Made by a program: the position numbers and the translations under genes. Shown in pieces: positions 1 to 40,730 of a stretch of DNA of 40,730 nucleotides. This stretch comes from a virus, in IMG/VR virus record IMGVR_UViG_3300025646_000107, positions 1-40,730 of that record. One strand, 5' to 3'. The first letter of the stretch is position 1. The number at the start of each line of letters is the position of its first letter. Below the pieces are notes generated by a model. That model worked only from the letters and a program-made list of their open reading frames with translations, had not been told where the DNA came from and made no database searches.

Positions 1-163
1 CGGGTCAAGCACGCGATAGCTAAGCTTCACTGTGTCGTTGACCTCGCGTTCCTTGATGCCGCGCGCCACAGCGTCGGCGTGGAGCTTTAGGCCTTCGTTC
101 GGCTTCTTGGCGCCGTACCATTCACGGTAGCGGACAAGGCAGCCACGCGGGATCTGGACGCGG
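1..163. repeat. Terminal direct repeat, left copy
   Basis: These 163 bases reappear at 40568-40730. The copies differ only at 7/40574, 22/40589 and 37/40604, and bases 38-163 are identical. The repeat lies inside terL and all three differences are synonymous third-codon-position changes. This is what a circular or circularly permuted phage genome gives when a contig overlaps its own end while two strain variants are present. The non-redundant genome is therefore about 40,567 bp. A genuine fixed terminal repeat carrying allelic differences is possible but less likely. Confidence 0.9.
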
Positions 164-9017: not shown

Positions 9018-9235
9018 GACGCAGGCTCCTCACAAATCCCATCCGACGGCGGGAGATAGGGACCGAGGCAGGAGGCTTCCAAGATCCTCGGCGTGTCGAA
9101 AGCCCTTTCGGCCGTCACCACCTTGCCGGCGCTGACCTCGCTCTCCGTGAGCTCGCAGATCATGCGGGAGACAGGGACAGGGCCAGACTCGCCGGTTTCC
9201 AGAACGGCCCACAGGAGCCAGATTTCGAGATTCAT
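9014..9235 (-). CDS. Small protein between methyltransferase and secreted protein
   Basis: A 73-aa protein. The ATG at 9235 overlaps the methyltransferase stop (ATGA), so the longer in-frame ORF is rejected. It starts with a short hydrophobic helix (LEIWLLWAVL), then a compact domain with three Cys (MICELTES, EASCLGPYLPP, GICEEPAS). It may be a membrane-attached or exported partner of the 194-aa protein, whose start it overlaps. Unrecognised. Confidence 0.62.
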   Translation of the reverse strand: MNLEIWLLWAVLETGESGPVPVSRMICELTESEVSAGKVVTAERAFDTPRILEASCLGPYLPPSDGICEEPAS

Positions 9236-10128
9236 GCCGCCCCCATAATGTCGAGCAACGATCCGCCGGCCGACGCATCCTCGGCGTCGGCAATGAACCG
9301 GCATGCCTGCCGCCAGTAGCTTTCCTTTAACTCGAACCCGATGAACTTTCGGCGCGTCCGCATGGCGACAACGCCTTCAGACCCGATCCCCATGAACGGG
9401 GACAACACGACATCGCCCTGGTTTGACCACAGCCGGATGGCTCGCTCGATCAGCGGCAACTGCAACGGGCAAATATGCTTCTCATCTTCCTCGCATCGCG
9501 CCTGCCGGCCATTCAAGACGTCAGTCTGGTTGATATCCATCCACACGGGGCTGGCCCACTTCTGCCAGATATCGACAGGGATATCCTGTGTCGAGTGCTC
9601 GATTGGCTCGGGATTGTCGCCGGGCTTCCGAAACACCAGCAGATAGTCCGCCATGCCGGCCCGGCTCATGGCGCTGTCTTTTTTGAGCTGCTTGTAGAGT
9701 AGACCGATGGCTTTCGTGCGCTGCATCTCAACAACAGGGTCCTTCCAGATCGTGATGCGCGAATGATAGATAAACCCTGCATCCTGGTGCGCGCGCACGA
9801 TGTCGTCGGAAAAGCCCTTGAGGCCGATATATCCGTCTTTCCCTTTGCGGGCAGGTAGATCCGTGCAGTGTACCGCAGTCAACCTCCCCGGTTTCAGGAC
9901 GCGCATTTTTTGCGCGATAACATGCCCGTACTGCTCGAAAAAAGCGCTGTCAGAGACGTTGTTGCCCATATCGGCAGCGCTATCCGAATAGACGAAAAGA
10001 TCCGAGAATGGCGGCGAGTATATCGAGAACCCGACGCTGGCGTCGGGCAGATCAGACATGCCCATAACGCAATCGCCATGAATCGCCGAAAATGTCTTGC
10101 CGTCGGCTTGATTGATAATGGTGTTCAT
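9232..10128 (-). CDS. Site-specific DNA methyltransferase (N4-cytosine/N6-adenine, beta-type order)
   Basis: A 298-aa protein starting at the ATG at 10128, which overlaps the helicase stop (ATGA) and has GAGGGGAG upstream. The catalytic SPPF motif (IV) is at residues 38-41. The SAM-binding motif FMGIGSEG lies near the C-terminus (about 247-255) with FIGFEL after it, which is the beta-class order. SPPF favours N4-cytosine or a related N6-adenine enzyme rather than CcrM, which has DPPY. No restriction partner is present, so it likely protects phage DNA or regulates phage genes. It is translationally coupled to the SNF2-type helicase. Confidence 0.87.
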   Translation of the reverse strand: MNTIINQADGKTFSAIHGDCVMGMSDLPDASVGFSIYSPPFSDLFVYSDSAADMGNNVSDSAFFEQYGHVIAQKMRVLKPGRLTAVHCTDLPARKGKDGYIGLKGFSDDIVRAHQDAGFIYHSRITIWKDPVVEMQRTKAIGLLYKQLKKDSAMSRAGMADYLLVFRKPGDNPEPIEHSTQDIPVDIWQKWASPVWMDINQTDVLNGRQARCEEDEKHICPLQLPLIERAIRLWSNQGDVVLSPFMGIGSEGVVAMRTRRKFIGFELKESYWRQACRFIADAEDASAGGSLLDIMGAA

Positions 10129-11531
10129 GCTGCGCTCCCCTCGATCCAAGATGGAATGATGACGTTCTTTGTCGGCGTGTACGGCTTCCGTGGCTGGTGC
10201 ACGTTAACCGCGCGGCTCATGGCACCGCGCATCTCGTTCTTCATGCGGTCATGATCGCCGCTCTTACGGCTCACCACGTCCCATATTGCCTTTTCCGTGT
10301 CCCCCATGGCGACATGGACGTGCACTGGCCGCGTCTGGCCGAACCTCCACGATCTCCGAATGGCCTGATAAAAGCTCTCGTAGCTGAACGATAGGCCAAC
10401 AAATGCCTGCCTCGCGCAGTGCTGCCAGTTGAGACCGTATCCGGCGATACTCGGCTTGGTGACGATCACGCGGGCCTTGCCGAGACTGAACGCGACCAGC
10501 CTCTCCTCCTTTACGTCGGCACGCATGGAGCCGCGCACTTCCATCGCGTCCGGGATGCGGTTCGTGAGTGCATCAGCCTCATAATCGGTGTCGCACCACA
10601 CGATCCACGGCTCGTCGCGCTCTGCGGCAACCATGGCAGCGATCCTGTCCGCCCGCGCATCAACCGTCATACGCTTCTCGCGATGGATTGACGTCGCACT
10701 GGTTTCTGGCATGCGCAGAAGCCGCGCCTGGCCGTCCTTCTCCTCGCCAGCATCAACCGAACGATCAACCTCTACTACGTGCTGGTGCATGACGAGATCG
10801 GGCAAAGAGAAATTACCATCATCGAAACCGATATCTGACGGCTTCGAGATGCACCGCGACCAGCTCGCGACCCAATCCCAGAAGGGGCGCACAGCATGCT
10901 TCTTTAGACGCCAGTCTTGACTAGCCGTGCTGGTGTCGTTGATGAACCACTGGGCCAGCATTTCCATGGTCCGCATGATGCCAAGGAACTCCGCGTGCTG
11001 GCCAAGCTCGGTATGATCGTTCGGCGCGGGCGTAGCGGTGCACGCGAGCTTGAAAGGCGTATCCGCAAATGCGCTCATGAGCGCTCGCGTCGTTGCTCCC
11101 GTGAAGGATTTCAGGATGGACGACTCGTCGAGAATGACGCCGGAAAAACTAGATGCGTCGAATTTTTCCAGCCGCTCGTAGTTGGTGATCCACACACCGG
11201 CCCCACTCACATCCTCTGGTTCGCGGATGTAGCGGGCCGCGATGCCGAACTTCTCCGCCTCCCGTTGATGCTGTGGACCGACAGCCAGAGGCGCCAGCAT
11301 CAGGACCGGCTTATTCGTGTGCTCGACAACGACGCGCCCCCATTCGAGAGCGCACAGCGACTTGCCGAGGCCCGTGTCGAGAAACATCGCAGAGCACCCG
11401 GCGCGCAGTGCGAACTCCGTCGAATGTCTCTGATGCGGAAACATCTCATCAGCCAGGCGTGGGACGCGCGCCATGCCACGCGGCGAAAATGATGCGTTTT
11501 TTCTTTCCAGAAGATCGATGTAGTTGCTCAT
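10125..11531 (-). CDS. SNF2-type (superfamily 2) DNA helicase/translocase
   Basis: A 468-aa protein starting at the ATG at 11531, overlapping the upstream stop. Motif I is DTGLGKS (residues 52-58). Motif II is the DES variant in VILDESSILKS (about 135-142), followed by motif III CTATPAPND (about 165). C-terminal motif V (IAGYGLNWQ) and VI (QAIRRSWRFGQ) match SNF2/DEAD-like phage helicases. It is a DNA-dependent ATPase that translocates on or remodels DNA during replication or recombination. Its coupling to the methyltransferase gene is striking. Replacement of DEAH by DESS is common in this phage subgroup. Confidence 0.9.
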   Translation of the reverse strand: MSNYIDLLERKNASFSPRGMARVPRLADEMFPHQRHSTEFALRAGCSAMFLDTGLGKSLCALEWGRVVVEHTNKPVLMLAPLAVGPQHQREAEKFGIAARYIREPEDVSGAGVWITNYERLEKFDASSFSGVILDESSILKSFTGATTRALMSAFADTPFKLACTATPAPNDHTELGQHAEFLGIMRTMEMLAQWFINDTSTASQDWRLKKHAVRPFWDWVASWSRCISKPSDIGFDDGNFSLPDLVMHQHVVEVDRSVDAGEEKDGQARLLRMPETSATSIHREKRMTVDARADRIAAMVAAERDEPWIVWCDTDYEADALTNRIPDAMEVRGSMRADVKEERLVAFSLGKARVIVTKPSIAGYGLNWQHCARQAFVGLSFSYESFYQAIRRSWRFGQTRPVHVHVAMGDTEKAIWDVVSRKSGDHDRMKNEMRGAMSRAVNVHQPRKPYTPTKNVIIPSWIEGSAA

Positions 11532-11725: not shown

Positions 11726-12222
11726 TCATCGCGCTCCCCGGTCTGGCGGCGGGATTGCTCGGTGAGGCGGGCCAAGCCTTCCCGCGTCATGTGCAGGCCC
11801 TTGTTGGGGCTGTTGCGCTGCATGTCGTAGAAGCTTCCGGCGCTGGCATCGACCGGCCGAGGCGTCGGCTCTTGGCTCGTCAGCGTCAGCTTGGCTTTGA
11901 GATCAGCGACCAGTTTGTCGGTTCGTGCTCTTGCCTCCGGCGACACTTCGCGCCGCTCAATCTGCTCATGCTCAGCCGGCACATGGGGCCGGCGGTGGCG
12001 CGCAGCGTCGGCCAACGCCTTCCGCGTCTCGGCCAGAAGTTCTGCCGGCTTCGGCCAGAACGTGCTCGAGGCGATCAGCTTGTCGGCAGCCTTGCGCAGC
12101 GCGGCCTCATCGTAGCCGTCCATGCAGCGGGCATATTCTTTGAGAAACAGGTCCGGATCGGTCGTGCGCGGCTCGCCAAATACGGCCATAAACCGGGCAA
12201 TGATCTCCTGCGAAATCGACAT
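11722..12222 (-). CDS. Helicase-loader-like replication protein
   Basis: A 166-aa protein starting at the ATG at 12222, sharing one base with the initiator stop (TGATG). The N-terminal half resembles G39P/lambda P-type loaders: FMAVFGEPRTTDPDLFLKEY, then ALRKAADKLIASSTFWPKPA with the family-typical WPKPAELL (about 56-63). The rest is a disordered, charged tail. Loaders of this type deliver the host DnaB helicase to the initiator-origin complex. There is no AAA ATPase motif, so it is not a DnaC-type loader. The order initiator then loader mirrors lambda O-P. Confidence 0.7.
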   Translation of the reverse strand: MSISQEIIARFMAVFGEPRTTDPDLFLKEYARCMDGYDEAALRKAADKLIASSTFWPKPAELLAETRKALADAARHRRPHVPAEHEQIERREVSPEARARTDKLVADLKAKLTLTSQEPTPRPVDASAGSFYDMQRNSPNKGLHMTREGLARLTEQSRRQTGERDE

Positions 12223-13004
12223 CAGGCGCACTCCTTGGCTGCGGCATCACGAAGGGCATCGGCAAGGGTTCGCTTGCCGGTCTGCTGCGGTCCTGCCCGC
12301 TGCGCTTTGGCGCGCGTAGCCTCGTAGCGAATGGTCTGGTCGTGGCGCTGGCCGGCGATGCGAGCGAGCTGGCTTGAGACCTGCGCCGACAGGGGGCGGG
12401 AACTGTTCGGCTGGATGAAACCGGCAACCTGCAGCAAGGCGAGGTCGAGCCGGTTCTCGTCGCCGTCGAACTTCTCGAGCCATTCGGCTCTCGTCCCGTT
12501 GACGAGGACGATGCGCTCCCCGTCCATGCGAACACCGCCGTCGTGGTGGTGAGCTCCGTGGCCGATCGCTTCCGACCAGAATTTGTGAGAGTTCGCGCGC
12601 CCGCTAACCCCTTTCGTCGACTTAGGAGCCGACTTACTGGAGCCGATATAAAGAGGAGTTCCGGAATTCGGAACCTCGGAGTTCCGAATTTCGGGTGTTC
12701 CGAGTTCCGAGTTTCGGGTGTTCCGATTTTCGGAACCATCGGAATTCGGAACCAGAACGAAGACCGTACTTGCTGCGTTCGGAGCCTTGTCGACTTCGAT
12801 CAATCCGCGCTCGGCGAGAGCACCGCTTGCCATGCTGAATTGCGACTTGCTGAGACCGCACATAGCGCGCAATTGCTCTTGCGTCTTGCCGCGCACCTGC
12901 CGGGTGTCCTCGTCCATCTCGAGGCGGTAGGTCATGAGGACGCGAAGCTCGTTCGGCTTGAGGTCCAGGGCGAGGATGGCGCGCATCTCGTCGTACACAC
13001 TCAT
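12222..13004 (-). CDS. Replication initiator (winged-helix, lambda O-like) with internal iterons
   Basis: A 260-aa protein. Residues 1-90 form a winged helix of the phage replication type: MRAILALDLKPNELRVLMTY, then KTQEQLRAMCGLSKSQFSMA and LAERGLIEVDK. Residues about 85-117 are a low-complexity linker of Asn-Ser-Glu/Gly-Thr-Pro repeats. This is the translation of the DNA iterons at 12658-12752. The C-terminal part (about 120-260) is helical and charged, suitable for loader contact. In lambda the origin lies inside the O gene in the same way. The start ATG overlaps the stop of a 17-aa leader peptide. Confidence 0.75.
   Translation of the reverse strand: MSVYDEMRAILALDLKPNELRVLMTYRLEMDEDTRQVRGKTQEQLRAMCGLSKSQFSMASGALAERGLIEVDKAPNAASTVFVLVPNSDGSENRNTRNSELGTPEIRNSEVPNSGTPLYIGSSKSAPKSTKGVSGRANSHKFWSEAIGHGAHHHDGGVRMDGERIVLVNGTRAEWLEKFDGDENRLDLALLQVAGFIQPNSSRPLSAQVSSQLARIAGQRHDQTIRYEATRAKAQRAGPQQTGKRTLADALRDAAAKECA
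12658..12752. repeat. Iterons (GTTCCGA/TCGGAAC), probable replication origin
   Basis: At least eight copies of GTTCCG(A/G) or its complement lie in 95 bp: 12658, 12667 (inverted), 12681, 12697, 12704, 12720, 12729 (inverted) and 12745 (inverted). Intervening TTTCGG and GAATTC pieces extend the symmetry. They sit inside the initiator reading frame in its disordered linker. This is the classic layout of a phage origin bound by the protein it encodes. Confidence 0.7.
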
Positions 13005-13116: not shown

Positions 13117-13151
13117 GCCCCGGAGAGCCTAGCTCCGGGGCTTTTCTTTTT
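13117..13151 (+). terminator. Plus-strand intrinsic terminator between initiator and gcrA
   Basis: GCCCCGGAG (13117-13125) pairs perfectly with CTCCGGGGC (13133-13141) over a 7-nt loop, followed by TTTTCTTTTT. The T-tract is on the plus strand although both flanking genes are on the minus strand, so it would stop antisense transcription into gcrA. On the minus strand the same hairpin lacks a T-tract. Confidence 0.7.
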
Positions 13152-13683
13152 ACGTTCCAAAAAGATGGCGGACGGCCTTGCCGGTGAGCGATGCCGGCGC
13201 TCTGGCGACCTCTGTCGGAACTGATGGACGGCCGACGATCCTGGCGCTGTAGGCGCGGCGGGCGTGGTCCTGGCAGTAAGGAAGGCCTGCCGACGCCTTG
13301 CAGCCGCAGAAGCCAAAACCGGGCTCTCCGGGCTCACCGACCGGCCACCGGCAATCGGTGCTCTCCAGCTCGGCGAACGTCTTGCGGGCGATGTCGGTGA
13401 CTTCCTTGGGCGGCAGGGGCTCGGCGGTCAGAAGATCGGCCAGCGACTTCTCGCGCTTGTTCATCGGCGGCGCCTTTGCCTTGGAGCGGTGTCGCGTGCG
13501 GTGCTGGTGCTTGGCGGCGACGGCCTGACGCTCTGGCCTAGCCCTGCCGGCAAGCCCAAGGCGATGAGCTTTCCCGATGACGGCGTTGCGGCTTACAGCG
13601 CCGAGCTGGCCCGCGATCTGGCTGGCACTAAGACCTCTCGCCCAGAGCGTCTTGAGATCTTCGACCGCTTTATCTGTCCACAT
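13150..13683 (-). CDS. gcrA: GcrA-family cell-cycle regulator
   Basis: A 177-aa protein starting at the ATG at 13683. The N-terminal domain is the signature GcrA helix-turn-helix: WTDKAVEDLKTLWARGLSAS, then QIAGQLG and SRNAVIGKAHRLGL. The C-terminus carries the conserved Cys-rich sigma-70-contact region (CRWPVGEPGEPGFGFCG, then YCQDHARRAY). The full length is kept. In Caulobacter, GcrA binds sigma-70 holoenzyme and activates promoters with methylated GANTC sites. A phage copy could redirect host polymerase or time phage transcription to the host cell cycle. It is a single gene flanked by non-coding DNA, with a GANTC-bearing candidate target at 4577-4611. Confidence 0.93.
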   Translation of the reverse strand: MWTDKAVEDLKTLWARGLSASQIAGQLGAVSRNAVIGKAHRLGLAGRARPERQAVAAKHQHRTRHRSKAKAPPMNKREKSLADLLTAEPLPPKEVTDIARKTFAELESTDCRWPVGEPGEPGFGFCGCKASAGLPYCQDHARRAYSARIVGRPSVPTEVARAPASLTGKAVRHLFGT

Positions 13684-13994
13684 GTAACCCCCACTGTCCC
13701 AACTCGAATTTCTCCGGCGGACGGCCCGATTTGACCCCACATGATGTGCCCCCAATGGGGACCTCCTGCTGCTGGGCATCGGGCCTCTCTAGTCAGTCAG
13801 ACGCCGCCGGACGCCTGCACAGGAGCGCAGCAGGAGGCTATGCCTCACGGCGAGCGGGACCGGTCACGCCCATGCGCGGCGCCTCTACACGGAGAGACCT
13901 AGAGCGCGCACATGGCCGATCCCGCTGGCGGTAGGGCCAGCAGACGCGATGCAACTGAGACTGACGCTGTACGGAGGGGACTAGGCCCGCCGAC
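13684..13994. other. Gene-free region upstream of gcrA
   Basis: This stretch of about 310 bp has no convincing gene. It holds the long inverted repeat at 13762-13837 and micro-ORFs of 20 codons or fewer (one plus-strand, at about 13839, behind AGGAGG). A plus ORF from 13911 runs antisense into the HTH gene with poor coding character. It is probably the leader and control region of gcrA. No GANTC site and no strong sigma-70 promoter were seen by eye. Confidence 0.4.
13762..13837. repeat. Long-range inverted repeat upstream of gcrA
   Basis: CCTCCTGCTGC (13762-13772) is the exact complement of GCAGCAGGAGG (13827-13837). The 54-nt loop contains a small CCTG/CAGG hairpin. Folding would sequester an AGGAGG ribosome-binding-like motif. 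On the minus strand it lies in the putative gcrA leader. Confidence 0.45.
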
Positions 13995-16929: not shown

Positions 16930-17237
16930 AAGAACGCCGCTGGTGGAACGCCACGCCGCAGACGGACCCAGGCGAGACCGTGGTCCCTATCCGGCGCCAG
17001 ACATTCGAGAGCCTCGCCGGCATCCGCCAACGCGCCATCGAGGAGCGGCACGAGATCCTGACCGAGCGCCAGCGCCTCGAGAGCGCCTACGCGGCCGAGA
17101 TGGCCCGCATGGACGACCTGCTGCGGCGTGCTGACGAAAGGCTCAAGGCTGCCGAGGACCAGATCCGCGGCATGCTGGCCGAGATCGGGATTTCCGCAAA
17201 GTTCGTGGCGGATGTCGGCGAGGAGCCCACGCCATGA
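16926..17237 (+). CDS. Coiled-coil protein
   Basis: A 103-aa protein. After a short N-terminal segment (KERRWWNATPQTDPGETVVP) the rest is a long charged helix with heptads (IRQRAIEERHEILTERQRLE, then MARMDDLLRRADERLKAAED). It ends GISAKFVADVGEEP. Its start and stop overlap the neighbouring genes by four bases. Likely an oligomeric accessory factor; no family recognised. Confidence 0.7.
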   Translation: MKERRWWNATPQTDPGETVVPIRRQTFESLAGIRQRAIEERHEILTERQRLESAYAAEMARMDDLLRRADERLKAAEDQIRGMLAEIGISAKFVADVGEEPTP

Positions 17238-17422
17238 GCAACCGCAAGATCCCGGCGCATCTGTTCTCCGCGATCGGCACCTATGTGCGGGCTGGCTACG
17301 GCTGGGAGGACGCCTACGTGAAACTTCTCCGCAAGGGCCTCATCGGCAGGCACGACAAAGAGGCCGTGCGCACAGTGGCCATGTCCTACTGGCCAAAGCC
17401 AAAGGTGGAGGATGTCGCATGA
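17234..17422 (+). CDS. Small protein of unknown function
   Basis: A 62-aa protein starting with an ATG that overlaps the upstream stop. Sequence SNRKIPAHLFSAIGTYVRAG, then WEDAYVKLLRKGLIGRHDKE. It predicts three short helices with a possible recognition-type turn, but no certain HTH. It overlaps the next gene by four bases. Confidence 0.65.
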   Translation: MSNRKIPAHLFSAIGTYVRAGYGWEDAYVKLLRKGLIGRHDKEAVRTVAMSYWPKPKVEDVA

Positions 17423-17877
17423 GGGACTGCCCACACTGCGGCTGCGAGCTGGCCCCGTCGTCGGGCGGCAAGCCCAGGAGCGTCGAGCAGATCCGGCGCT
17501 ACTTCGCGATCATCAAGGCCGCGTTCTTCCACTGGCCCGAGGACAACGAGCGGCAGTTCGCCAACAGCGAGGAATTGAGAGCCTACCTCCAGATGAAGGC
17601 CGGCGCGCGCGAGATCGGGGCGCAGATCCCGCTCACCGGCTTGCCGAAGGAGCGAGCCATGATGCTGGCCGAGGCCGCCATCCGCGGCGCGGGCTCCTAC
17701 GCCATGCCGGTGATCCACGGTGACACGTTGGTGGTATTCCGACCGAAGTCGATCAGCTTTGCGAAGATGGCTCACGCGGACTTCTGCCGGCTCTCCGACG
17801 CCGTTTGCGACGTGATCCGCGCCGAGACCGGCCACGACCCGGACGAGCTGCTGAGACAGACCGAGAGGGCGGCATGA
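17419..17877 (+). CDS. DUF1367-like phage protein with N-terminal zinc knuckle
   Basis: A 152-aa protein. The ATG at 17419 overlaps the upstream stop, so the longer in-frame ORF is rejected. It opens with a CPHCGCE knuckle. Then follows RSVEQIRRYFAIIKAAFFHW with a helical middle and a C-terminal strand-helix region (DTLVVFRPKSISFAKMAHAD, then FCRLSDAVCDVIRAETG). The pattern recalls the DUF1367 proteins found in lambdoid recombination (ninB-like) regions. That link is from memory of the family and is moderate. Its neighbours recT and HNH fit a recombination module. Confidence 0.65.
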   Translation: MRDCPHCGCELAPSSGGKPRSVEQIRRYFAIIKAAFFHWPEDNERQFANSEELRAYLQMKAGAREIGAQIPLTGLPKERAMMLAEAAIRGAGSYAMPVIHGDTLVVFRPKSISFAKMAHADFCRLSDAVCDVIRAETGHDPDELLRQTERAA

Positions 17878-18581: not shown

Positions 18582-19430
18582 TTATTGGCCATCGTGCAGC
18601 CTCGACAAGTACTCCTCGGATGTCAGGCCGCCCGTGAATTCGGGATCGATGATTGCGTTGGCGTCGGGCAGTTCAGAGCGAGCCTTCAGAAAGCGCACCC
18701 TTGTCGCCTCCACCTGGCTGATCTTGCCTTGCGCGCGATAGTGGATCGTGCCGAAAACCTCGATGCGTCGAAGCTTCCAAACATCGCCGATTTCATGAAC
18801 TGAAACTTCGGCCTTAGCTTCGCCGGTCATGATGCACTTGATCTCGTTGCCAGTCAGTCGATGCCTCAGAGTGAGGATGCTTCGACCGTAGCCGTCGCTA
18901 TCGACATGCTTGACGTGCCCTTCGATTGTGCCGAGCTCCCGGTAGGGCTTTCCCTTCGGTGTCAGCGTGTCCCGGATGTTCTTCGCAGACGCTCTTGCCA
19001 CGGTCGGGGTTATCACGACGGGCGCACCGCCTTCGATCTCGACTGTCATGCGGTCGAAGCCGTTGGTCACTCGCTCAAAAATGCGGTTGGCCTTCAGGAG
19101 AGCCTGATCGTTGAAGTACTGTGGTCGGGAGGCCTCTTGCGCCAGACGACGCAGCCCCCCCAACGTGTTGCTCAAGATCAGTTGCGCGCGCTGATCGATA
19201 TTGACAGCGTATTCCTTCGGAAATGCCTGCACTTCGAGCGTCAGCGGGCTGTTCTTCCTTGCTTTGACGATCCGCCAGTCGATGACACTCGAGCCATCTT
19301 CGGCGAGCGTCCCTTCCACGAGAGCCATCAGCTCAAAGTAGTCACGGACCTGATCGATGAAGTCTCCAACCGTCGGAGCATCGCTCTCCGGATCGCTGGC
19401 TGAGACGCTGAGGGTGATGACCTTGGACAT
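18582..19430 (-). CDS. Hypothetical protein of accessory block
   Basis: A 282-aa protein with a well-mixed alpha/beta sequence: an N-terminal domain (VGDFIDQVRDYFELMALVEG, then SSVIDWRIVKARKNSPLTLE), a central helix-rich part and a C-terminal beta domain (RSILTLRHRLTGNEIKCIMT, then IGDVWKLRRIEVFGTIHY). It resembles chromosomally encoded bacterial proteins of unknown function more than phage structural proteins. It shares the minus orientation with the zinc-ribbon and recombinase genes upstream and probably forms an accessory cargo operon with them. Confidence 0.65.
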   Translation of the reverse strand: MSKVITLSVSASDPESDAPTVGDFIDQVRDYFELMALVEGTLAEDGSSVIDWRIVKARKNSPLTLEVQAFPKEYAVNIDQRAQLILSNTLGGLRRLAQEASRPQYFNDQALLKANRIFERVTNGFDRMTVEIEGGAPVVITPTVARASAKNIRDTLTPKGKPYRELGTIEGHVKHVDSDGYGRSILTLRHRLTGNEIKCIMTGEAKAEVSVHEIGDVWKLRRIEVFGTIHYRAQGKISQVEATRVRFLKARSELPDANAIIDPEFTGGLTSEEYLSRLHDGQ

Positions 19431-19437
19431 AGCGGTT

Positions 19438-19764
19438 CTAGCGCCTAGATATTCGAGTCATCTTTCCGCAGTGATCGCACTTAGTTCGAGACCGCTCATC
19501 AAGACGCTTCATCTCGTCTTTGTATCGCCTCGCAGCCTCATGCATTCGCATGTCGCGCGAGGCCAACTGCGTCAGAACCCACATAGGGTTTAGTCTCTCG
19601 CCGCACTCGCCGCACTCAACCTCAAGCTTCTTGTCGTCAACGATGAATTTGTTGTGCGCGCACCCGCCGTAGCGCTGGACTTCGTGAGGACGAACAAGCG
19701 TTCTTTCTTCTGGAACATGGCTTTTATACCGGACAGGCAGTCTTGTGACATTATCTTCACTCAC
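19438..19764 (-). CDS. Zinc-ribbon protein
   Basis: A 108-aa protein with two likely metal sites. One is CAHNKFIVDDKKLEVECGEC (about 35-54), which supplies C-x-H...C-x2-C. The other is CDHCGKMT near the C-terminus. A charged helix lies between them (ASRDMRMHEAARRYKDEMKR). It may bind nucleic acid or act as an adaptor. It sits 13 nt after the recombinase gene and 7 nt before the 282-aa gene. Confidence 0.68.
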   Translation of the reverse strand: MSEDNVTRLPVRYKSHVPEERTLVRPHEVQRYGGCAHNKFIVDDKKLEVECGECGERLNPMWVLTQLASRDMRMHEAARRYKDEMKRLDERSRTKCDHCGKMTRISRR

Positions 19765-19777
19765 GACTTCCCCTCCT

Positions 19778-20359
19778 CTAGCTCCGTTCCTTGTCCACGG
19801 TGTAGGCCCTGATCGTGGCCTCGCTCACGTCGTACATGGCGGCGAGCACGCTCACCGCCTCGCCCTTGCTTCGGTGCGCCTGCGCTTCGGCAATTTGCTC
19901 GTCGCTCATCTTGCGGCGCCGGCCGACCGGTAGCCCGCGCTCGCGCCGACGCTGCACGCCAGCCTTGGTTCGCATCACGATCAGCGCGCGCTCGAACTCG
20001 GCCACCGCGCCAAGGATGCCGAGGATCAGCCGACCCATGGGGCCGGTCGTGTCGATAGGCTGGGCGATCACGCGAAGGCCCGCGCCAACGGCATCGATCG
20101 CTTCTACGCGCCGGTACAGATCGGACATCGAGCGCGCAATCCGGTCGATCGACCACACCACGAGCACGTCGCCCTCGCGCAGCATGCCGACAGCTTCGTC
20201 CAGCCTCGGCCGGCGCTTGGCCGCCCCGGAGATTTGCTCCGAGAGGATGCGCTGGCAGCCGGCCTTTTCGAGTGCGGCAATCTGCATGTCGAGTGACTGC
20301 TCCTCGGTGCTCACCCTGGCGTAGCCGATGACGGCGCCGCTCTCGGAGAGAGGCGGCAT
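19778..20359 (-). CDS. Small serine recombinase (resolvase/invertase family)
   Basis: A 193-aa protein started at the ATG at 20359 to match family length; a TTG at 20401 would add 14 residues. The catalytic serine is in YARVSTEEQ near residue 12. Further family marks are GAAKRRPRLDEAVGMLREGD, the VWSIDRIARS helix, and the alpha-E oligomerisation helix around GPMGRLILGILGAVAEFERA. A C-terminal HTH follows (AVSVLAAMYDVSEATIRAY). It cuts and rejoins DNA as a tetramer. The small size indicates a resolvase or invertase, not a large phage integrase, so it may resolve genome multimers, invert DNA or act as cargo. A palindrome lies just upstream at 20405-20431. Confidence 0.9.
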   Translation of the reverse strand: MPPLSESGAVIGYARVSTEEQSLDMQIAALEKAGCQRILSEQISGAAKRRPRLDEAVGMLREGDVLVVWSIDRIARSMSDLYRRVEAIDAVGAGLRVIAQPIDTTGPMGRLILGILGAVAEFERALIVMRTKAGVQRRRERGLPVGRRRKMSDEQIAEAQAHRSKGEAVSVLAAMYDVSEATIRAYTVDKERS

Positions 20360-20404
20360 GGGCTCGGGCAACGCCTGCCGCTTGCGCTTCGTTCGTCTCA
20401 AAAC

Positions 20405-20431
20405 CGACTGTCCCGAAAGTGTTGACAGTCG
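20405..20431. promoter_or_regulatory. Palindrome upstream of the serine recombinase (operator or res-like site)
   Basis: CGACTGTC (20405-20412) and GACAGTCG (20424-20431) are perfect 8-bp inverted arms with an 11-bp spacer, 27 bp overall. That is the size of a resolvase dimer site. It lies between the recombinase start and the divergent promoter at 20452, so the recombinase could bind here both to recombine and to repress. The element also contains GTGTTGAC, shared with the promoter at 14311. Confidence 0.5.
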
Positions 20432-20451
20432 AATTTCTACCCGACTTCCTG

Positions 20452-20480
20452 TTGACGCGCAAGCGCGGCTTCTCTATATT
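20452..20480 (+). promoter_or_regulatory. Strong sigma-70 promoter for the zinc-finger gene pair
   Basis: TTGACG (20452-20457), a 17-bp spacer and TATATT (20475-20480) form the best promoter in the window. The start point would lie about 10-20 nt before the ribosome site GGGGAG of the gene at 20508. A second GTTGAC copy lies 30 bp upstream. Confidence 0.75.
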
Positions 20481-20507
20481 CACACCATGAGCAGGGGAGA
20501 CACGGAC

Positions 20508-20825
20508 ATGGATCATTGCGATTGCTGCGGCGCTGAGATGAAGCACAAGCGCATCGGCGCGCGGCGAGCTTCTTACCTGTTCGTGTGCGAGGATTGCCGG
20601 CGGGCGCGAAACGGATCTGATTGTCGAGTGAAGATCGACCCACTCTTTGCCGGCAAGCCCGTCGTGACGCGCGTCTTCCCGCGCGGCTATCCGTGGAAGG
20701 GTGGATGGAACTACTCGGTACACTCGGCTCCGTCCGCCATGCCTATCGAGCAAGGCTGGCAGTTCACCGAAGCCGAAGCGCACGCACGAGTTGCAGCCAT
20801 CAAAGCCGCTTACGAAGCAAAGTGA
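20508..20825 (+). CDS. Small protein with two Cys pairs (zinc finger)
   Basis: A 105-aa protein. The ATG at 20508 is preferred because GGGGAGA lies 9 nt upstream; an in-frame ATG at 20487 would fall too near the -10 box. Cys pairs CDCC and CEDC are spaced like a treble-clef or zinc ribbon (residues 4-35). The C-terminal part (WKGGWNYSVHSAPSAMPIEQ, then FTEAEAHARVAAIKAAY) is a separate alpha/beta piece. It has its own strong promoter and is followed 15 nt later by the 103-aa gene. Confidence 0.75.
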   Translation: MDHCDCCGAEMKHKRIGARRASYLFVCEDCRRARNGSDCRVKIDPLFAGKPVVTRVFPRGYPWKGGWNYSVHSAPSAMPIEQGWQFTEAEAHARVAAIKAAYEAK

Positions 20826-20840
20826 CAGGAGACCCCGGGC

Positions 20841-21152
20841 ATGAAGCTCGAAGACACCCAGCCAATTACCGAAGAGCTCCACCCGTTCTTCGGGCCGAAT
20901 GAGAACGACTGGAACCTCGACGCTGATCTGGGGAGCGACGACTACGGCAAGCCCGGCGTCGGCATCATTGCAAACGCCGTGTCTATATGGGCGTCACTGA
21001 ATGGGGCGCCCACGCTCGGAGACGCCGCCAAAGCTTTCAAGATGCCGGTGGAAGCGGTCGCGCAATGCGTCGATTGGCACCCGTGGATGTACTTCATCGG
21101 GGACGAAAACACGCCAATCGAAGATCTCGTGATCGAGCACGAAGGCGAGTAG
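20841..21152 (+). CDS. Acidic hypothetical protein
   Basis: A 103-aa protein. It is acidic throughout, with a helical core (ANAVSIWASLNGAPTLGDAA, then KAFKMPVEAVAQCVDWHPWM) that looks like a winged or HTH fold: GDAAKAFKMPVEAVAQCV reads like a turn followed by a recognition helix. Promoter and orientation group it with the preceding zinc-finger gene. It is convergent with the lysis genes, with only 17 bp between the two stops. Confidence 0.72.
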   Translation: MKLEDTQPITEELHPFFGPNENDWNLDADLGSDDYGKPGVGIIANAVSIWASLNGAPTLGDAAKAFKMPVEAVAQCVDWHPWMYFIGDENTPIEDLVIEHEGE

Positions 21153-21500: not shown

Positions 21501-21776
21501 CTAACTCGTCTTGGTTGGCTCGGATGGCTTGCAGTCGTCCTTGTAGACGACTTCCTTGCCCTGGATGATGGTGTCAATGCGGGACGATTGCGCCGCGAGC
21601 TGCTGGCGTGTCTCGCACGTGTCTTTCCGGCTCGGGCGAACGTGGCCGATGGCCTCGGCCGTCACCTTCGCGTCGGCTGGAATCTTAGTCTCGGAAGTAA
21701 GGATTGAGCACGCCGGGAGACTGAGGATCAGCAGACTTGCGACCAGCATCCTTGGCACGCTTGCGCACCGTGTCAT
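21501..21776 (-). CDS. Rz1-like outer-membrane lipoprotein (o-spanin)
   Basis: A 91-aa protein with a lipoprotein signal: a hydrophobic stretch ending LSLPAC, the lipobox, with Cys at residue 23. The mature part is short and polar (TETKIPADAKVTAEAIGHVR, then CETRQQLAAQSSRI). The gene overlaps the end of the Rz gene by 92 nt in another frame, the hallmark of Rz/Rz1 pairs. Together they fuse inner and outer membranes at lysis. Confidence 0.8.
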   Translation of the reverse strand: MTRCASVPRMLVASLLILSLPACSILTSETKIPADAKVTAEAIGHVRPSRKDTCETRQQLAAQSSRIDTIIQGKEVVYKDDCKPSEPTKTS

Positions 21777-21897
21777 TGCGTTTCTCCACCTTGGCGACGG
21801 CGCGAGCCTCGCCCTTGTCGATCAACGCAGAACGAGAGGACAGCAGGGCCATGACGGCCATTGAGATGGCGGCGGCGAGGGCGAGACGGGTGATCAT
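21685..21897 (-). CDS. Rz-like inner-membrane spanin (i-spanin)
   Basis: A 70-aa protein with one N-terminal membrane helix (LALAAAISMAVMALLS) and a charged helical periplasmic domain (ARAVAKVEKRNDTVRKRAKD). This is short for an i-spanin but fits the type. Its ATG overlaps the endolysin stop by four bases, and the Rz1 gene overlaps its 3' end out of frame. Confidence 0.75.
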   Translation of the reverse strand: MITRLALAAAISMAVMALLSSRSALIDKGEARAVAKVEKRNDTVRKRAKDAGRKSADPQSPGVLNPYFRD

Positions 21898-22565
21898 GAT
21901 TTGGCCTTTTTGATGCCCCAGCTCACCGCAGCAACAAGCGCAAAGACCAGCGTCCCGAGCAAAAACACTGACGTGTCATGGCTGCCGAGCACCTTGCTCC
22001 ACCCCGCCAAGTTGGTGACGGTCTGGACGATGCCGTCGCTCACGGGAGGCACAAGCGGCGCCTTGATGCCGGTCACGGCGTCAGCAGCCTCCTTCGTGAC
22101 CACAGCGCCCGTGCCGACTGCGGCCGCAATGGTGGCTCGCGCCTTGGCAATCGTGCCGACCTGCTCCGCAATCAGGGTGCCGGTCGGGACACCTGATGCC
22201 GGGTAGGCCTTGCGGTCGAGCTCGAAGTGGGGCGTGTCGCGGCTTTTCCAATCGCCACCCCACACGATCGGCACGTTGCATTCGTTGGCCGCCGCCTTCA
22301 TCGCATCAGCGATCTTGTCGAGGTCTGGGATGTCGTAGCCGTAGTTGTCCGCGTCCACCAGATCTACGGCGTGCCCGGTGAGATGGCGCGAGTTGATCGT
22401 CCAGCTCTTGCCGGCCGCCTTGAGCTCTGCTTGCCGCTCCCGTGACCGCAGCCCCTCGGTCACGACGATAGGCACCTCGCACCGGGCCGCGGCCATCTCC
22501 ACCACGCGCACAAGGTCGGGATGCACGCCGGCCAGGTTCTTCACGCTGCGTTCGTTCAGGCTCAT
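21894..22565 (-). CDS. Endolysin, M15 family L-alanyl-D-glutamate peptidase, with C-terminal membrane anchor
   Basis: A 223-aa protein. Residues about 10-135 match the M15/VanY endolysin fold: GLRSRERQAELKAAGKSW, then SRHLTGHAVDLVD (zinc His and Asp) and WKSRDTPHFELD (second zinc His). It cleaves the peptide cross-links of murein. After a Val/Ala-rich linker it ends in one membrane helix (VFLLGTLVFALVAAVSWGI) with a KKAKS tail. Most M15 endolysins are soluble, so this C-terminal tether is notable. There is no N-terminal SAR signal. It is followed directly by spanins and holin-like genes. Confidence 0.9.
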   Translation of the reverse strand: MSLNERSVKNLAGVHPDLVRVVEMAAARCEVPIVVTEGLRSRERQAELKAAGKSWTINSRHLTGHAVDLVDADNYGYDIPDLDKIADAMKAAANECNVPIVWGGDWKSRDTPHFELDRKAYPASGVPTGTLIAEQVGTIAKARATIAAAVGTGAVVTKEAADAVTGIKAPLVPPVSDGIVQTVTNLAGWSKVLGSHDTSVFLLGTLVFALVAAVSWGIKKAKS

Positions 22566-40171: not shown

Positions 40172-40730
40172 TTAGACCCTCCAGCTCTGTTCGCTTGACT
40201 GGCTTGCACGGCGATAGCCGTCCGATGGCGTCTTCTTGACCTGCGGCGCCTTGCGCACCCAAGGACGCGACATGCAGGCATAGCGCCACTCATCGCCGGC
40301 GTGGTCTTCGCCGTCCGAGTCGATATCCTCGGGTCTGTCCTTGTCGTGCTGCAGGGCTGGGATCGTCCTGATGCTGTCATGGCACGTCGAGAACGTGACC
40401 AGCATGGGGTGCCCATCCTCATCGCCAACGAGCCTGCCGCGCATCTGGTCCCAGCCACCCATGGCGCCGCGCTGAGACACGCGCGCATTGTCAGCCGGTC
40501 GGAACGTGACCTTCTCTCGCGCCATGGCCTGAGCAATCGACTCGCCGCCGTCTTCTGCGAACGCTGCCGGGTCGAGCACGCGATAGCTGAGCTTCACTGT
40601 GTCATTGACCTCGCGTTCCTTGATGCCGCGCGCCACAGCGTCGGCGTGGAGCTTTAGGCCTTCGTTCGGCTTCTTGGCGCCGTACCATTCACGGTAGCGG
40701 ACAAGGCAGCCACGCGGGATCTGGACGCGG
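40172..40730 (-). CDS. terL: Terminase large subunit (TerL), C-terminal part
   Basis: This is the continuation of the gene that starts at 1083. Its TAA lies at 40172-40174, two bases before the portal GTG. It contains the nuclease region LVTFSTCHDSIRTIPALQHD, then DGEDHAGDEWRYACMSRPW, whose acidic residues (near 449 and 453 of the joined protein) bind metal. The 163-base overlap with the left end encodes identical residues in both copies. The joined product has a complete ATPase and a complete nuclease. Confidence 0.93.
   Translation of the reverse strand, partial: RVQIPRGCLVRYREWYGAKKPNEGLKLHADAVARGIKEREVNDTVKLSYRVLDPAAFAEDGGESIAQAMAREKVTFRPADNARVSQRGAMGGWDQMRGRLVGDEDGHPMLVTFSTCHDSIRTIPALQHDKDRPEDIDSDGEDHAGDEWRYACMSRPWVRKAPQVKKTPSDGYRRASQSSEQSWRV
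40568..40730. repeat. Terminal direct repeat, right copy
   Basis: This matches 1-163 except at three synonymous positions in terL (see the left copy). It closes the genome into a circle. The identical part is 126 bases (40605-40730). Confidence 0.9.

Follow-up and report, generated by a model that had tools for sequence, protein, structure and literature searches.

What is the function of a perfect palindrome located just ahead of a small serine recombinase gene in an environmental phage? The window examined here, the whole 40,730-base stretch of viral DNA, carries one such palindrome. A sequence-only reading had proposed that the recombinase binds there to its own control region, and that the phage genome may be resolved or maintained like a plasmid. 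Our analysis points to an operator-type dyad of a divergent phage cassette, bound most likely by the recombinase and regulating the neighboring genes, a proposal to which we give about an even chance.

The palindrome and its neighborhood

The palindrome lies in a 127-bp gap, with the recombinase open reading frame directed leftward, away from it, and a promoter-like pair directed rightward (Table 1). The perfect 8-bp arms before the recombinase start and the divergent promoter beyond them are thus as first described. This pair is the only one of its kind within 20200-20700, whereas no leftward promoter on the recombinase side scores above 7 of 12. The recombinase start is an ATG at 20359, and the open frame extends back to a possible alternative TTG start at 20401. 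Judged by homology, the divergent small gene more likely has its real start at 20508.

Table 1. Positions of the palindrome, neighboring and other features of the window, and two resolvase-like genes of relatives
Feature	Position	Strand	Basis
27-bp inverted repeat CGACTGTC-N11-GACAGTCG, proposed operator (arms 20405-20412 and 20424-20431; 11-bp spacer; centre on base 20418)	20405..20431	.	dyad and comparative support
Weak second dyad AGTCG-N10-CGACT, right arm common with main palindrome	20427..20446	.	by eye; 5-bp arms
Small serine recombinase, 193 aa	19778..20359	-	PF00239 9.8e-43; phrog_125 1.2e-61
Divergent promoter-like pair TTGACG-N17-TATATT	20452..20480	+	10 of 12
Leader/ribosome-binding region, akin to leader CATCAGACACGGGAGANNNACATG of other phages	20481..20507	+	sequence comparison
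Divergent small gene, cysteine-rich N-terminus	20487..20825	+	no family match
Second small gene, divergent direction, 103 aa	20841..21152	+	no family match
Gene after recombinase, same direction, phrog_4865 (unknown function)	19438..19764	-	PHROG match
Third gene in recombinase direction, 282 aa	18582..19430	-	no family match
NinB/Orf-type recombination mediator, left flank of cassette	17128..17877	+	family match
Endolysin (phrog_465), right flank of cassette	21894..22565	-	family match
GcrA family protein	13150..13779	-	PF07750, 1e-43
DNA methyltransferase	9232..10149	-	phrog_67
Repeat array of GTTCCGAATTTCGG type	12655..12752		
Resolvase-like protein	L203 619..1188		most catalytic residues changed
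Resolvase-like protein UOF81803.1 (MW202785.1, Podoviridae sp. isolate ct2G2228)	L204 2355..2927		most catalytic residues changed

Taken alone, the palindrome is mildly unusual, a weak signal of modest significance. The window contains 25 perfect 8-bp-arm repeats with loops of up to 20, compared with 20.2 ± 4.4 in 100 dinucleotide shuffles, 19 of which reached 25. When the 127-bp gap was shuffled, an 8-bp-arm repeat appeared in 167 of 5000 trials (3.3%). The palindrome is present in single copy, as no other was found within three mismatches in the 40,730-base window; at this tolerance, at least one chance match occurred in 25 of 100 shuffles. It is the one strong dyad of the gap, and the second dyad, with only 5-bp arms, may be due to chance. 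Two 25-nt stretches of the window that are 76% alike (20426-20450 and 21532-21556) lie on either side of the divergent operon, each with a dyad recognized by eye (AGTCG-N10-CGACT and AGTCGTC-N6-GACGACT). This pairing may also have arisen by chance.

The catalytic motif of the recombinase is unbroken, with GYARVST and DRxxR both present, as in small serine recombinases of the Tn3 family. In an alignment of eight recombinases, GYARVST, D72, R73, and R76 are invariant; the arginine of GYARVST and the D, R, and R of DRxxR are among the residues that we take to be catalytic. The protein can be aligned to gamma-delta resolvase and to a DNA invertase. Its best relative of solved structure is the DNA-invertase 4m6f (4e-34), presumably Gin, and phrog_125 carries the name 'DNA invertase'. 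We looked for a close named relative and rejected all candidates: relatives in phages (383 records) and, among at least 5000 plasmid matches, those listed are all below 60% identity. Invertases of the Gin/Hin/Cin type use two inverted crossover sites around a segment, whereas the dyad is single in the window. Within 3 kb the window has 65 inverted pairs of 18 nt or more; the 25 longest reach at most 83%, and no good inverted site pair is among those listed.

Genome organization and occurrence of the cassette

The two ends of the window (1-163 and 40568-40730) overlap by 163 bp, differing at 3 positions, and the junction is spanned by contig L008. The genome therefore appears to be closed, with a size of ~40.57 kb, and to be either circular or circularly permuted. 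It also encodes a P22-type portal, a capsid, terminase genes, a RecT-like annealing protein, and an open reading frame with a LexA-type DNA-binding domain. The GcrA family protein and the DNA methyltransferase suggest an alphaproteobacterial host, whose methylation-linked cell cycle may be used by the phage.

Searches of the window for a tyrosine integrase (PF00589) and for a large serine recombinase domain (PF07508) were negative, in agreement with the earlier statement that a large integrase is lacking. The 'iterons' noted earlier are probably the repeats that do exist at 12.66-12.75 kb, beside the open reading frames 12107-12739 and 12222-13004. The plasmid-like resolution or maintenance suggested earlier is not supported. 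ParA-type (PF13614) and ParB (PF02195) families were not found in the window either, and no Rep or Par family is among the 25 of 30 families listed for its 74 open reading frames. A ParA-type family was likewise not found in the records of seven of seven relatives. With no match in the window to the ParA, ParB, large serine recombinase, or tyrosine recombinase families, plasmid-type maintenance has gained no positive support, although a replication protein of an unrecognized type may be present.

We rejected the idea that the recombinase is a stand-in integrase. An intact recombinase and a PF00589 match above the cut-off occur together in G016, G019, and G022, so the cassette is not a substitute for an integrase; this coexistence also speaks against plasmid-like maintenance. 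PF00589 is above the cut-off in G023 and MW202785 (changed active site) and in G021 (unassigned neighbor). It was not found in the window, in G004, or in the short records G006, G017, G018, G020, and G024, and the window and G004 have an intact recombinase without an integrase match. G008 gives a PF00589 score of 18.6 bits, below the cut-off. The PF00589 integrase lies within a few kilobases of the cassette in G016, G019, G022, G023, G021, and MW202785.1, with none in the window or G004; in temperate relatives, the attachment region may thus be next to the cassette.

Sequence comparison indicates that other environmental phages have a divergent cassette of this kind: a small serine recombinase is read in one direction, and in the other come a promoter, its conserved leader, and a small gene. 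The contig L002 comes from the same phage (99.98% over 5.9 kb) and is uninformative on conservation. G004 is more distant, with a capsid 33% identical and a recombinase 40-42% identical to those of the window. Nonetheless, a 34-residue stretch (residues 5-38) of its divergent gene is 88% identical, and a 136-bp block (window 20465-20599) that takes in the promoter, the leader, and the first codons has 82% DNA identity, which would fit either local exchange or strong constraint. The palindrome is absent from the G004 gap. By capsid, G008 is nearer to the window than G004 (68% identity), and its 42.6-kb record, which may be incomplete, gives no recombinase match. Because G004 shares the cassette at 33% capsid identity whereas G008 has no recombinase match, the cassette looks accessory. 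The order NinB/Orf, recombinase, leader gene, endolysin is preserved in G004 and L194, and partially also in L195, L197, L201, and L202.

The leader pattern CATCAGACACGGGAGANNNACATG was found in 10 viral contigs, nine of them usable, since the upstream part of L198 is cut. In six of the nine, the divergent neighbor is an intact PF00239 recombinase (L194, L195, L197, L199, L202, and G004/L117). The other three neighbors are a degenerate recombinase (L203), an HNH/helix-turn-helix protein (L200), and an unassigned protein (L201). The last was considered as a degenerate resolvase and rejected, as this was unsupported by hhalign, Pfam, PHROGs, and Foldseek (model pLDDT 48), and it is not counted here. 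A match in L007 (48% over 24 residues) was judged to be due to chance after inspection of its DNA. The small proteins encoded after the leader mostly differ, apart from one common to L198 and L200 and a similar N-terminal beginning of the proteins in L199 and MW202785. In the sole match among genome contigs, L196 (Oceanicella), the leader pattern is followed by an unrelated gene, and this may be a chance occurrence.

Inverted repeats and altered active sites in related cassettes

The gap between the divergent neighbor and the leader was searched for its longest perfect-arm repeat (spacer 3-24) in the nine relatives and the window, with 1000 dinucleotide shuffles per region as the null. Significant repeats were observed in L199 (9-bp arms, p = 0.003), L195 (10 bp, 0.006), L197 (8 bp, 0.018), and L202 (8 bp, 0.018), as well as in the window (8 bp, 0.03). 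They were not significant in G004 (p = 0.75), L194 (0.36), L200 (0.33), L201 (0.10), and L203 (0.21), nor in MW202785 (L204), where 272 of 1000 shuffles did as well. A repeat chosen by eye in L194 (TGGCAA-N19-TTGCCA) was left out of the counts. Fisher's combined probability is 1.7e-5 for all 10 regions and 6e-5 for the nine without the window.

Arms of 8-10 bp, differing in sequence, are thus present in the gaps of four of nine relatives, compared with ~3% of random windows. In the control, arms of at least 8 bp occurred in 103 of 3300 random windows from the same contigs and in 54 of 1453 AT-rich windows. Leaving out the window, the probability of four in nine is 1e-4 against the random and 2e-4 against the AT-rich set. 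An 8-bp-arm repeat within 220 nt upstream was also found in four of 14 other recombinase relatives (80% clusters) whose upstream DNA was long enough, where 0.67 were expected; two of the four are leader cassettes (L034/L197 and L047/L195). The recurrence of repeats in this gap is hard to put down to chance. A different result was obtained for the palindrome of the window itself as a shared phage site. Its 7-bp-arm pattern occurs in 77 viral stretches including the window's twin (L116), and only two of the other 76 carry a remote recombinase relative (28-29% identity). These 76 matches look like chance, and a shared, recurring site was rejected.

The position of the repeats relative to the promoter was compared as well. 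In all ten regions the best -35 box starts 33 or 34 bp ahead of the leader mark, and in the nine leader-bearing relatives the best promoter pair scores 8-10 of 12, with its -35 at the same place within 1 bp. In L195, L197, L199, and L202 the repeat overlaps this divergent -35 box. In contrast, the window repeat spans -81 to -55 from the leader mark with the -35 at -34, so that it lies ~20 bp upstream of the box, and it measures 27 bp compared with 34-36 bp in the relatives. Because it is shorter and further upstream, the window repeat is, on sequence grounds, an analogue of the relatives' repeats and not a proven counterpart.

Two relatives encode a protein with a changed active site at this locus. 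The PF00239 score is 24.7 bits for MW202785 (L204), above the cut-off, and 18.6 bits for L203, below it; hhalign gives 87.8% for L203. By eye, the residues at the arginine of GYARVST and at the D, R, and R of DRxxR are changed in both, whereas the serine may be kept. A structural model of L203 was not used (pLDDT 48). Over 188 codons, the two genes differ with dS of 1.12 and dN of 0.099, and the dN/dS of ~0.09 indicates purifying selection. Retention of the resolvase signal, loss of most catalytic residues, and purifying selection together favor a DNA-binding role.

MW202785.1, a named phage and a circular 40-kb relative of the window, resembles it in having a near copy of the leader and a divergent resolvase-like gene. 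It is unlike the window in its changed catalytic residues, lack of a significant dyad, and integrase. In L205 1-4258 (MW202785.1), compared with window 18582-21152, the cassette is reversed relative to its flanks (the NinB side and the late-operon side). No description of such a phage cassette was found in the titles and abstract openings of the papers listed by literature searches.

Possible roles of the palindrome

If the palindrome is an operator, a recombinase dimer would most likely bind it through the C-terminal helix-turn-helix and would thereby regulate its own gene, probably by repression, and perhaps also the divergent promoter, on the model of Tn3 resolvase at its res region. Regulation, more than recombination, would be its main role. 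Of the original proposal, a resolvase binding its own control region would be the best reading by comparison. According to PMC7157771, both divergent genes of Tn3 are controlled by resolvase bound at res. The repeats vary from one cassette to the next, and similar recombinases go with like repeats, which would follow if every recombinase recognized a site of its own; a single pair shows this. In L195 (TTGTGCAA-N18-TTGCACAA) and L202 (CTGTGCAA-N18-TTGCACAG), with 71% identical recombinases, repeat and spacing are the same except for a paired outer change. Repeat lengths of 27-36 bp also come near the 28, 34, and 25 bp given for resolvase dimer sites in PMC12217951. However, the window repeat is off the -35 box, shorter, and significant only at p = 0.03. 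Further points against an operator are the lack of such a repeat in G004, which among the relatives has the most similar divergent gene, the nonsignificant repeats of L194, L200, L201, L203, and L204, the chance-like matches of the arm pattern in other viral DNA, the low leftward promoter score, and the neighbors of L200 and L201. The window enzyme may recombine elsewhere in the genome, since its catalytic motif is unbroken.

An operator need not be read by the recombinase, and another phage or host protein might bind instead. Overlap of the repeat with the -35 box in four relatives is open to any repressor, the phage has both a GcrA family protein and the LexA-type domain, and L200 keeps the leader promoter beside a neighbor that is not a recombinase. 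Variation of the repeat by cassette, and its sharing by L195 and L202, argue otherwise. Moreover, an E. coli LexA box was rejected because CTGT and ACAG are 13 apart in the palindrome and not 8, as in CTGT-N8-ACAG, which we take to be the LexA-regulated operator. We regard binding by a different protein as unlikely. The palindrome could also be a chance repeat of a GC-rich phage genome. The repeat count of the window (25, against 20.2 in shuffles), the absence of the palindrome from G004, and its shifted position would all fit, but it occurs in a gap where four of nine relatives have a significant repeat of their own. Chance is in our estimate a rather improbable explanation.

The comparison with Tn3/gamma-delta resolvase and res bears on a further alternative, in which the palindrome is a res-like recombination site, one per genome, that resolves genome multimers. 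Both systems have a small serine recombinase, divergent genes, and inverted repeats between them. The catalytic motif is kept, a single site per genome suits dimer resolution, and in Tn3 one region does both resolution and regulation, as far as PMC7157771 states in the text available. However, the res subsites of Tn3 measure 28, 34, and 25 bp, and the accessible text of PMC12217951 describes a 28-bp crossover subsite (boxI) with a 2-bp centre. In the window, one strong dyad and a possible second with 5-bp arms stand in place of three subsites, and the strong dyad is of odd length and centred on a base, unlike a crossover subsite. The lack of a recombinase match in the possibly incomplete G008 record and the changed active sites of L203 and MW202785 point the same way. 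In addition, no transposase was seen beside the window recombinase; what diverges from it is a small gene of the phage, preceded by a conserved leader. A res-like site is in our view quite doubtful. An RNA hairpin in the recombinase transcript, acting as an attenuator or covering the start, is hardly credible: the minus-strand RNA has a predicted fold of -13.6 kcal/mol (z -2.24, with 5 of 200 shuffles equally good) and its stem adjoins the possible TTG start, but a terminator scan found none at the palindrome, and overlap with the -35 box in four relatives suits DNA and not RNA.

For the lineage as a whole, we offer a more tentative and somewhat doubtful suggestion. In an environmental podovirus-type lineage, proteins of the serine-recombinase fold may serve as transcription regulators of a divergent leader cassette, each reading its own palindrome, and in some members catalysis may have been lost, leaving proteins that persist solely as DNA-binding regulators. 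The names of phage 'DNA invertase' genes usually derive from homology alone. The proteins of L203 and MW202785, with a changed active site yet still under selection, make the regulator question directly testable. If the cassette is a regulator-promoter pair, then some 'DNA invertases' would act primarily as repressors, with recombination a secondary function or none.
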